Part shown: one piece after another, positions 6,110-41,818 of the stretch
Position numbering within the stretch: the stretch's first letter is position 1
Layout of the letters: every line of letters starts with the position of its first letter
Translations under genes and position numbers: made by a program
Notes under the pieces: model-generated
Told to the model about the DNA's origin: nothing
The model's database searches: none
Seen by the model: the letters and a program-made list of their open reading frames with translations, nothing else
Assembly (NCBI GenBank): GCA_018266955.1
Contig: JAFDZI010000016.1
Location: forward strand, 1 to 64,000
DNA length: 64,000 bases
Source: Bacteroidota bacterium
GTDB lineage: Bacteria; Bacteroidota; Bacteroidia; Flavobacteriales; Weeksellaceae
Direction of reading: 5' to 3'

Positions 6110-7225
6110 TTATTGAATTTGATAGGATGTTATTTTCCATTCGCCATTGACATTTTTCAGTCCGAAATTAACTTTCAAAGCTGTTGTATTTCCGTTTTTG
6201 TCTGTTACATCATAGGTTGCTGAAACAGATGCCGAATTGGGTGTGGATTGAATTGGGTTAATATTTTTAACCGTTAGAGATTTTACCGCACCAAAACCAG
6301 AAGTTGGATTAGCAAAAGATTCATAGGAGCCCCAACTTGGATTTTGAGCAGATTCAAAAGCAGCTTTTAGATTTTGGGAACTTAAATTGTTTAAAAACTT
6401 ACTCACAATTTGTTTGGGTTCCACTATCGGAGTAGGATTTTCTGTACTTGGTGTAGGAACTACTTGGGTAGAATCTATCACTGGTGCTTTAGGTTGTTGT
6501 AAAGCACTTGGATTGATTGCAATTCCTGTTTTGGTGAGTTGAAATGTCTTTTTGGTTGTTTTAATACTTACTTTAACATCAATTTTATTATCAAAAACTT
6601 TGTCCGCAGGTAGAGAGGATAGTTTTAAATAAAATCCTTTAAAATGATTATCGGAGATAATATTTTTAGCAGTCATTAATTTTGCTCCTCCACTAAAGAC
6701 TTCCATAATAGCTTCTAACCCAGCCCCGGAAAATTCTACTTCCTTATCTGTTGCATCTACCAAACGAGGGACAATTTGTAAAGCTTTTACCCCTAAACTA
6801 TCATTTCCTATGGGTTTAACTTGAATAAGCACTGCATTTGCCGCGATGTCATTATGATCTACTTCTTGTGCAGAGACATTTCCAAAAATATTCATTTCTC
6901 CAAGTGATGGAGGACCAGTACTTGTCCATGCCATTCCATTTTTTTGAGCAACAGTATCGGCAAGCTGTAAGATTTCTTGAACATCTTTACCATTAAGATA
7001 CTTTGCCAACTGTTTAAGCTCTGTAATGTCATCGTCTCCATTGACGGCAAACTTTTTTAAGATATAAAGCGCTTCATTAAATTTTATTTGTTGAAGAGTC
7101 GTTAAGGAAGACTGCATATCATTAATACTCGATTGAAAAGCTTGTGTACTTGAAGCATCTACACGATCTTTCTTACATGAAAGCAGAAAAAATAACAAAA
7201 GGAGAAATAAAAGGTTTTTCTTCAT
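6110..7225 (-). CDS. Lipoprotein of unknown function
   Basis: This 371-residue protein starts with a hydrophobic leader ending in the lipobox LLSC at Cys17, so it is a predicted lipoprotein. I do not recognise the central part. The last 100 residues, ending in GEWKITSYQ, look like an NTF2-like/DUF4878-type domain in which a short helix is followed by a curved sheet; this is a pattern resemblance only. A proline-rich linker (PTPSTENPTPIVEPK) separates the two parts. It is the first gene of the unit leading to apt, glucokinase and msrA, and has a well-formed promoter upstream. Confidence 0.75.
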   Translation of the reverse strand: MKKNLLFLLLLFFLLSCKKDRVDASSTQAFQSSINDMQSSLTTLQQIKFNEALYILKKFAVNGDDDITELKQLAKYLNGKDVQEILQLADTVAQKNGMAWTSTGPPSLGEMNIFGNVSAQEVDHNDIAANAVLIQVKPIGNDSLGVKALQIVPRLVDATDKEVEFSGAGLEAIMEVFSGGAKLMTAKNIISDNHFKGFYLKLSSLPADKVFDNKIDVKVSIKTTKKTFQLTKTGIAINPSALQQPKAPVIDSTQVVPTPSTENPTPIVEPKQIVSKFLNNLSSQNLKAAFESAQNPSWGSYESFANPTSGFGAVKSLTVKNINPIQSTPNSASVSATYDVTDKNGNTTALKVNFGLKNVNGEWKITSYQIQ

Positions 7226-7280: not shown

Positions 7281-7310
7281 CAAATTTATGAAAAAAGCTT
7301 AATTACGCAA
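7281..7310 (-). promoter_or_regulatory. Bacteroidota promoter of the lipoprotein-apt-kinase-msrA unit
   Basis: On the minus strand TTG (7310-7308) is separated by 19 nt from TAAATTTG (7288-7281), a full match to the TTG-N17-23-TAnnTTTG consensus. The -33 end lies in a perfect 15-bp tandem duplication (7308-7322 and 7323-7337) that also places a second TTG further upstream. Confidence 0.7.
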
Positions 7311-7337
7311 GAGTAGAGAATACAAGAGTAGAGAATA
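7308..7337. repeat. Perfect 15-bp tandem duplication
   Basis: The unit caagagtagagaata occurs twice in a row without mismatch. It lies between the stem of the small-RNA candidate and the -33 element of the lipoprotein promoter, so a change in copy number would alter promoter spacing. Confidence 0.8.
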
Positions 7338-7342
7338 AAAGA

Positions 7343-7414
7343 GGAGGCGGATTTTAAGTAATGAAATTACCTAAAGGTTTTGCTTGCTTTTGATGTCCCG
7401 CCTCCAATATTTTT
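7343..7414 (-). ncRNA. Candidate small RNA with long closing stem
   Basis: On the minus strand a promoter at 7447-7419 predicts a start near 7411-7415. The transcript would begin just before GGAGGCGG (7405-7398), which pairs perfectly with CCGCCTCC (7350-7343), and is followed by the T-rich TCTTTTATT. Inside the 47-nt loop is a small hairpin gtaat/attac (7358-7370). There is no open frame of note. It could be a free RNA of about 70 nt or a structured leader of the downstream lipoprotein gene, which has its own promoter. I do not recognise the family; it lacks SRP and known riboswitch motifs. Confidence 0.45.
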
Positions 7415-7418
7415 TTTG

Positions 7419-7447
7419 CAAATATAGAATAAAATCTTTTGCCTCAA
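7419..7447 (-). promoter_or_regulatory. Promoter of the small-RNA candidate
   Basis: On the minus strand TTG (7447-7445), an 18-nt spacer and TATATTTG (7426-7419) form a complete Bacteroidota promoter directly upstream of the GGAGGCGG stem. No protein-coding gene starts within 190 nt downstream. Confidence 0.6.
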
Positions 7448-7544
7448 AACTAAACGAATGATTAATAAAAAATGAAATAAAAAAACTTTTAGTTTTTAAG
7501 AAAAAACATACTTCACAAGCATACATTTTTCAATCTTAATACTC

Positions 7545-7766: not shown

Positions 7767-9095
7767 TTAGAACGGATATTCAAAAATCATAGATTCGTGT
7801 AGGTAAGGGTTTCCTGAAGGGATAAGTTTCATTTTGCTTAAAGTGGTCATCACTACAAAAATAAATAATCCAGCAAAGAAAACTACAGATCCAATTTCTA
7901 ACAATCCGAAATTCCAGAAAGGACCTACTGTACCAGGCATTACCATTAGGAAGTGAATAATCAATTGTCCCAATATCACGATGCAAGCCATGGTTACTAC
8001 TACTTTATAATTTCTCTTTATGCTGGAACTTACCATAACAATAAGAGGGATTAAGAAAGTAGGAATTAAACTCGGTAAGAAAAGTGCTGAATAGTACTCG
8101 AATCTTCCAAAGAAATAATTTACTTCTTCAGGGATGTCGGCATACCAATACAACATAAACTGACAGAACCAAGTATAAGTCCAAAGCATAGAAGATGCAA
8201 ATAAGAACTTCCCTAAATCGTGTAAGTGGTTGTCATTAAACTGAGGTAAAAATCCATTCTTTTTTAAGTAAACAGAAATAATGATAATTACTGCAATTGC
8301 ACTTGCCAAACAGCTTACCAAAGCATACCAAATGTACATGGTTGAATACCAGTGTGGGTCGATGGACATTAACCAATCCCAAGCCCAAGCAGCTGAACAG
8401 AATCCGAAGAAAGCGATATATCCTACAGACCAGCTATAGACTTTTTTATAATCTTCTCTTGATTTAGTTTCGTCCACTTTTTTGGTGAGTGACTTTAATT
8501 TCCATACAAAGAAAGAGCCTCCAAGAACATAAATTAATGTTCTGATTACATAGAAAGGTACATTCAAAAACTTTTTCTTTTCATAAATAAGCGGATCAAA
8601 TTCTGATGAATTTGGATCTACCAAAGCAGGATCCATCCAATGGAATAAATGTCCATAGTGTGCTGCATTCAGAATTGCTACGATAATAAGTACTCCTCCT
8701 GCCCATGGCATGAAAGATCCTACCGCTTCCATTACTCTAGTCACAATAATAGACCAACCTGCATGTGAAGCATGCTGAATAGAATAAAAGAACATTGCCG
8801 CAGCGGATAAACCGAATAGGAATACTGCTACAAAGTGTATTGCAGATAAAGGTTCGTTTGCGATTTGATGTTTAACATGTTCAATATGTGACGCCGCATT
8901 ATGTCCTCCATTCATTTCACTTGAATGTGTGGGTGCATTGTGTCCATTCGAATGTACGGTTTCCATAAGGTGAGTAATTTTAGCTTCATCACCCAATAGA
9001 CCATGATTCATCATATAACCAGCGCCAAAAAGAACCAATCCCAGAACAATGAGTATTATAGATATTAATCTTAATTTTGGTGAAAATGTGTACAT
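7767..9095 (-). CDS. actF: Alternative complex III subunit ActF
   Basis: ActF is an integral membrane subunit of alternative complex III, the quinol:cytochrome c/electron-acceptor oxidoreductase that replaces cytochrome bc1 in many Bacteroidota. The 442-residue protein shows about ten hydrophobic segments, with a His-rich periplasmic or cytoplasmic loop (residues about 40-75: NGHNAPTHSSEMNGGHNAASH) after the first. It is the last gene of the act operon, 12 nt after actE, and is followed by a terminator instead of the cytochrome oxidase genes often found next in relatives. Confidence 0.92.
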   Translation of the reverse strand: MYTFSPKLRLISIILIVLGLVLFGAGYMMNHGLLGDEAKITHLMETVHSNGHNAPTHSSEMNGGHNAASHIEHVKHQIANEPLSAIHFVAVFLFGLSAAAMFFYSIQHASHAGWSIIVTRVMEAVGSFMPWAGGVLIIVAILNAAHYGHLFHWMDPALVDPNSSEFDPLIYEKKKFLNVPFYVIRTLIYVLGGSFFVWKLKSLTKKVDETKSREDYKKVYSWSVGYIAFFGFCSAAWAWDWLMSIDPHWYSTMYIWYALVSCLASAIAVIIIISVYLKKNGFLPQFNDNHLHDLGKFLFASSMLWTYTWFCQFMLYWYADIPEEVNYFFGRFEYYSALFLPSLIPTFLIPLIVMVSSSIKRNYKVVVTMACIVILGQLIIHFLMVMPGTVGPFWNFGLLEIGSVVFFAGLFIFVVMTTLSKMKLIPSGNPYLHESMIFEYPF

Positions 9096-41639: not shown

Positions 41640-41714
41640 CAATTAATCATGTTTTTTCTTCCCCCACTATTCCGTTGGTGGTGAACTTATTTCTACATTT
41701 TGTAAGGACTGTTT

Positions 41715-41818
41715 GCGTGAAGGATTGTAATGGAAATCCTTGGGCAAGGAACGAAGCCCAAGATTGGAATGGAAAGCCTGACCCGGGAAGGTGGGGATTG
41801 CCATGGCGAGGGACACGC
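41715..41818. ncRNA. Multi-stem intergenic element (flavobacterial RNA/repeat type)
   Basis: Closing pairs gcgtg (41715-41719) and cacgc (41814-41818) enclose a hairpin aaggatt/aatcctt (41720-41741), a second tgggc/gccca (41741-41760), then a half that repeats the first motif (aagattggaatggaaagcc) and a gacccggg...ggtgggg stretch. The arrangement gcgtg-aggatt...gaccc...gggacacgc recalls a family of intergenic elements I know from flavobacterial genomes, possibly the Flavo-1 RNA motif; this needs a covariance search. Strand is undecided. It lies between rnhA and a leftward cytochrome gene, with no promoter of its own that I can see. Confidence 0.5.

Follow-up and report, generated by a model that had tools for sequence, protein, structure and literature searches.

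Known small RNAs of the Bacteroidota

FopS and GibS of Bacteroides thetaiotaomicron are Bacteroidota small RNAs described as carrying a conserved single-stranded seed (PMC11697453, PMC7366714). The account of FopS gives a length of about 65-70 nt, an intergenic position for 9 of 14 members, canonical sigma-ABfr promoters, paralogous copies and binding by the RRM-1 protein RbpB (PMC11697453); in that description the seed is free at the 5′ end and a terminator hairpin comes after it. Among flavobacteria, Rfp18 of Flavobacterium psychrophilum is reported as an independent small RNA with a strong predicted fold, conserved in its genus and proposed to pair in trans (PMC9723704). Flavo-1 (RF01705) is a structured RNA motif of Flavobacteriaceae.

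Here we analysed a 64,000-nt stretch of a Weeksellaceae genome (contig JAFDZI010000016.1, hereafter the window) and searched three genomes of its genus, namely the window's own (G000), G001 and that of Amniculibacterium aquaticum KYPW7 (G002). The existence of a genuine conserved small RNA in the window appears likely from the sequence comparisons. Its best reading, which we hold at roughly even confidence, is an independently transcribed, trans-acting RNA of about 80 nt whose exposed core would base-pair with mRNAs. Like FopS and GibS, it would belong to the Bacteroidota small RNAs with a conserved single-stranded seed, but its predicted fold encloses the core within an 8-bp closing stem, beside a nested hairpin, instead of leaving a 5′ seed free ahead of a terminator hairpin; FopS is set apart here by description, not by seed letters. 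Rfp18 is likewise an independent, strongly folded flavobacterial RNA as described, but it comes from another genus, and the region through which it is predicted to pair is its third stem-loop, the comparison again being one of descriptions (PMC9723704). Among the papers listed on the genus, on small RNAs of Weeksellaceae and other flavobacteria, and on Rfp18, GibS and Flavo-1, no title or abstract opening describes the present RNA. On this basis it is new but of a known kind, the intergenic trans-acting small RNA of Bacteroidota, and its open stretch inside a closed stem is unusual.

Predicted anatomy of the element

The whole element lies on the minus strand. The initial annotation had reported, without naming the strand, a promoter leading into a perfectly paired stem and then a T-rich tail, and this arrangement is indeed present. 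The putative sigma-A-type promoter (7447-7419) consists of TTG at 7447-7445, an 18-nt spacer and TATATTTG at 7426-7419. Since the flavobacterial sigma-A-type box TAnnTTTG is described as lying at -12 to -5 (PMC9723704), the transcription start would fall near 7414. With the 3′ end guessed from a U-rich tail, TCTTTTAT at 7342-7335, the predicted small RNA extends from 7414 to 7335, about 80 nt if that start is right and not the 70 nt or so first proposed.

The 5′ arm of the outer stem, GGAGGCGG (7405-7398), forms eight perfect pairs with the 3′ arm, CCGCCTCC (7350-7343), identified from the sequence and from a pair check over three copies. The perfect pairing was as first described; the distance between the arms is 47 nt, not 48. 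Within this stem, RNA folding predicted a nested hairpin, TTTAGGTAAT-TTC-ATTACTTAAA (7375-7353, 7375-7366 pairing with 7362-7353), which had gone unmentioned. Between the 5′ arm and the hairpin lies the predicted unpaired core, ACATCAAAAGCAAGCAAAACC (21 nt, 7396-7376), a candidate pairing or protein-binding site. Its predicted unpaired probability per nucleotide is 0.77-1.0 in the window copy and 0.64-1.0 and 0.89-1.0 in the two A. aquaticum copies, a and b respectively. The tail reads TCTTTTATTCTCT from 7342, with no strong U run, and may be a weak terminator or a processing end; a terminator scan, whose loop limit of 8 excludes the outer stem, found none at the tail of the element.

Positions 7418-7335 fold at -20.5 kcal/mol into two nested helices (z -3.84), and none of 200 shuffles folded as well. 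The longer stretch 7418-7270 is less striking, with a z of -1.69 and 11/200 shuffles equally good. The opposite strand of 7343-7418 also folds well (z -4.34), as would be expected of an inverted repeat, and the strand is assigned from the promoter. Stems of 8 perfect base pairs whose arm has 7 or more G/C letters and whose loop does not exceed 60 nt occur once in the window and in 0/2000 shuffles of the 541-nt intergenic region that holds the element; shuffling the entire window produced them in 3 of 20 cases, and shuffling the A. aquaticum region in 1/2000.

The promoter by itself stands near chance frequency: nine TTG-N17-19-TAnnTTTG sites were counted on both strands of the window against a shuffled mean of 6.75, which is no clear excess. 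More weight comes from copy b in A. aquaticum, which carries the exact TTG-N18-TATATTTG with different spacer letters. Copy a has only a degenerate -7 box, TACAATTG, with no TTG in place. By sequence match, the element of the window appears to have its own promoter of the TTG / TAnnTTTG type.

Tandem copies in Amniculibacterium aquaticum

The genome of A. aquaticum KYPW7 holds two copies in tandem, both on the minus strand (G002:C4:79353-79432 and 79491-79571) and both between actF and a lipoprotein gene, as is the single copy of the window. On its contig04 the two core matches are 137 nt apart. BLAST of a 121-base query aligned at 87% over positions 21-109 and at 83% over positions 36-117, with E values of 1.1e-21 and 5.7e-16. 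A covariance model scored the three copies at 94.5-100.6 bits, these being the copies from which it was built.

The core is identical at 21/21 letters in all three copies, at a distance of 1, 2 or 4 nt from the 5′ arm. Such constraint on an unpaired stretch between two helices is what would be expected of a seed or a protein site. In every copy the 15 modelled pairs are all intact, with 45/45 pair cells standard. The outer stem keeps 8/8 pairs in each, with one G-C to G-U change. The inner hairpin keeps its seven inner pairs, a single A-U having become G-U; its three outer pairs are not all kept in A. aquaticum. Among these three copies from two species the only changes were those two one-sided, compatible ones, with no double-sided compensation. 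When pair partners were slid by 1-3 columns, 38-71% remained paired; the pairing structure was itself derived from these sequences, and the shuffle control (500/500) is uninformative. Taken as it stands, the pair check favours the predicted structure.

Conservation is centred on the element. Identity between copies is 0.89, 0.79 and 0.86 over the body, figures slightly lowered since the slices do not fit the stem exactly, running one letter too long in copy b and one too short in copy a. Over the 60 nt of upstream flank it is 0.54-0.62, against a shuffled mean of 0.55, and downstream it is 0.58. The element reads as a non-coding stretch conserved above its flanks. Loss of both arms from close relatives, which the initial annotation had named as evidence against the element, was not what we found: both are kept in two of the three genomes of the genus. 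G001 gave no match to the element with BLAST or the covariance model, and its lipoprotein gene lies behind a different upstream neighbour. The sequence TTTTATTAATC..GTTTAGTTTT upstream of the window's copy matches the spacer between the two A. aquaticum copies, so that a second copy may formerly have stood in the window as well. Probably the element either originated in an old actF/lipoprotein junction within the genus or entered it by insertion, and was then duplicated.

Distribution outside the two genomes

The core was sought with at most two mismatches in 296 family genomes. Five gave a match: G000, G002 and three more in which the matches lie in long open frames, without stems. In 59 relatives the covariance model returned something at E ≤1 in 35 genomes, only G000 and G002 exceeding 27 bits in a search whose filters are strict and lose weak matches; the best other match (L060, 26.7 bits) is without the core. 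An exact 19-mer of the core was found in 13 stretches of the GTDB 220 contigs, one of Amniculibacterium and 12 without stems, and once in viral contigs, likewise without stems. The pattern GGAGGCGG-N26-54-CCGCCTCC occurred in four of the 59 relatives, and its matches in G021 and G054 lack the core. Matches outside G000 and G002 looked like chance, and the small RNA, as judged by these searches, is apparently restricted to one genus.

Known families gave no identity. There was no Rfam 15 match at gathering score for the element in the window or in the A. aquaticum stretch, and three weak Rfam matches were taken as chance. Flavo-1 was rejected, the element scoring 14.9 bits against a cut-off of 42, and over a shifted stretch (7390-7455). 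No tRNA or tmRNA was found in the window. Elsewhere in the window, a Flavo-1 RNA does exceed its cut-off (41710-41787, plus strand, 48.8 bits), about 430 nt before meaB (42217).

Tandem copies could also be read as an inverted repeat of the DNA, or a small mobile cassette, placed by chance behind promoter-like sequence and yielding no functional RNA, and promoter-like sites are about as frequent here as in shuffled DNA. However, no further strong copies were found in G000 or G002, plasmids gave no match, and phages gave four partial matches at E 0.2-0.7. Furthermore, it is the inner core that stays identical, and not the arms alone. We consider a repeat or cassette of this sort very unlikely, and return to the small RNA.

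Coding potential

The initial annotation had stated that the region holds no open reading frame. This has to be qualified: a mechanical 51-codon frame (7526-7371, minus strand) crosses the promoter and continues through the element's first half, and another of 17 codons (TTG...TAA) begins at the stem. The A. aquaticum copies preserve neither. All three copies share no frame whose start codon falls between the predicted transcription start and the core. Several open frames cross the core, of which the one reading TSKASKT is open in 3/3 copies. Counted from the core, its nearest or only starts are TTG at -51 in the window, GTG at -57 in copy a and TTG at -24 in copy b, with further starts in copy a at -87 (GTG) and -117 (ATG). 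A coding reading was judged unlikely, as all of these starts fall inside or ahead of the promoters, the peptides diverge beyond the core, and small length differences on either side of the core shift the frame. We regard the element as non-coding on these comparisons, and a peptide as unlikely.

The actF/lipoprotein junction

Downstream of the element lies a gene of 371 aa (6110-7225, minus strand), whose product we take to be a lipoprotein from its lipobox-like N terminus; a DUF6694 match is below cut-off. The product is 75% identical in G001 and 71% in A. aquaticum. A candidate promoter of its own (7310-7281, minus strand) comprises TTG at 7310-7308, 19 nt and TAAATTTG at 7288-7281, and the A. 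aquaticum gene has the matching layout TTG-N19-TATTTTTG in the same sense, in agreement with the claim that the next gene is served by a promoter of its own. A perfect tandem repeat of two CAAGAGTAGAGAATA units occupies 7308-7337 (plus-strand reading), from the tail of the RNA to the lipoprotein promoter, and was not seen in the junction sequence of A. aquaticum.

Upstream, at 7767-9095 on the minus strand, is a gene that we presume to be actF from gene order. It sits behind actD and cytochrome c genes; these neighbours match ActD and cytochrome in Pfam, and the actF protein itself has no Pfam match. An intrinsic-terminator-like hairpin follows actF (7744-7721, minus strand), and 541 nt separate actF from the lipoprotein gene in the window. 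A second promoter-like box, TATCTTTG, lies in the same junction (7694-7650, minus strand) with a counterpart, TAATTTTG, in A. aquaticum. In both species it is followed, by eye, by an 8-codon frame (MKKSVTLC and MKKEVTIK) that overlaps a GTTAC..GTAAC hairpin. This box and frame upstream of the small RNA form a possible leader-like element.

The promoter at 7447-7419 might instead drive a transcript that continues into the lipoprotein mRNA, the element then being a cis-acting leader of riboswitch-like or attenuator-like type. Element and gene share a strand, 117 nt lie between the end of the stem and the ATG at 7225 (about 90 nt in A. aquaticum), and no strong terminator separates them. Yet between them stands the second promoter layout that both species keep, and two tandem copies would be unusual for a leader, though possible. 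The distribution also argues against it: a search of 40 genomes gave the lipoprotein gene in 21, and at the 19 loci besides G000 and G002 the model scored at most 13.7 bits. Among the 21 fetched flanks (up to 1500 nt), actF was seen upstream in 10 and not in the other 11. The eight actF junctions besides those of G000 and G002 are without the element; in five the non-coding space is no more than about 80-165 nt, in one it is longer, and two contain another open frame. The element does not travel with the lipoprotein gene in relatives, and the lipoprotein operon to which it was first linked is its address only. We judge a cis-acting leader unlikely.

A separate short structured transcript, as the initial annotation had proposed, is the reading that best fits the sequences. 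It is supported because the body is conserved above its flanks and duplicated in tandem at the same syntenic place, and because the promoter layout recurs before copy b and, in both species, a separate promoter precedes the lipoprotein gene.

Proposed mode of action and candidate targets

In the mechanism that we propose, the housekeeping sigma factor would start transcription near 7414, and the 8-bp GC-rich stem would close the molecule and protect its ends. Together with the nested hairpin, this stem would keep the 21-nt A-rich stretch open as a working surface, most likely a seed that pairs with mRNAs in trans. Pairing would change the translation or stability of the targets, perhaps with help from an RRM-1 protein encoded by the genome; an RRM_1 protein exceeds cut-off in 3/3 genomes of the genus. 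On trans base-pairing with mRNAs as the mechanism our judgement is evenly divided.

Searches for targets were carried out in G000 and G002. With RNA genes set aside, complements of the core with at most three mismatches in 20 nt were no commoner than reversed-pattern controls in either genome. A 16-nt core complement with at most two mismatches gave 16 sites against 9 reversed in G000 and 11 against 6 in G002, counts that include the RNA genes themselves (one in G000, two in G002) and, in G000, four sites that share one repeated word. No gene near the 16-nt sites is common to both genomes, 26 of the 27 loci having given a row and L121 none. The repeated word, TTTGCTACCTTTTGAT, lies at G000 C5:31703, C12:37601, C34:7373 and C42:49722 and may be a repeat that has nothing to do with the small RNA.

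SusC genes, which would be targets as for FopS, were considered at nine start regions, those above the family cut-off among 17 found. Two of the nine, L136 and L140, which belong to G002, did better than about 97% of shuffles, unlike the other seven; at -14.1 kcal/mol, L140 is lower than the -13.6 reached by the best among 53 window ORFs. The SusC candidates are unproven, the G000 loci showing nothing comparable. Pairing of a CCUCC in the 3′ arm with the rpsU leader was rejected, there being no GGAGG within 150 nt in either genome. At 34 orthologous start regions around the locus, pairing energies correlate at 0.12 between the two species. The meaB start region ranks about third of the 34, and core nucleotides 2-9, CATCAAAA, complement TTTTGATG, the sequence around the start codon of, for instance, meaB in both species; the meaB leader is conserved as a whole. 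This leader (...UAUAUAUAUUAUUUUUGUUUUGAUG; window 42217, plus strand, and L153) is almost unchanged between the two species. Across these searches, for which seeds of 7-10 nt are too short, there is no convincing or consistent mRNA target in G000 and G002.

The same core could serve without mRNA pairing if, open and A-rich, it titrated an RNA-binding protein, for instance of the RRM-1 type, or a ligand. Its full identity in three copies, the lack of a close complement in the genomes and the presence of RRM_1 proteins all fit such a role, and duplication would raise the dose; against this, short seeds of 7-10 nt would have slipped past the target searches. To a protein-binding RNA we give a low probability. 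Trans pairing by the small RNA remains the mechanism that we favour.

Significance

To judge from literature listings, little has been charted of the small RNAs in flavobacteria other than Flavobacterium. The locus combines a compact, testable anatomy with a natural duplication, and the invariant 21-nt stretch names the residues to mutate. It is a doubtful extension that the element represents a new small-RNA family of one genus, multiplied in tandem, with a long invariant seed inside a closed stem and possibly covering start codons. The finding is a modest but concrete entry for the family, and it may present a young small-RNA gene in an old gene junction.
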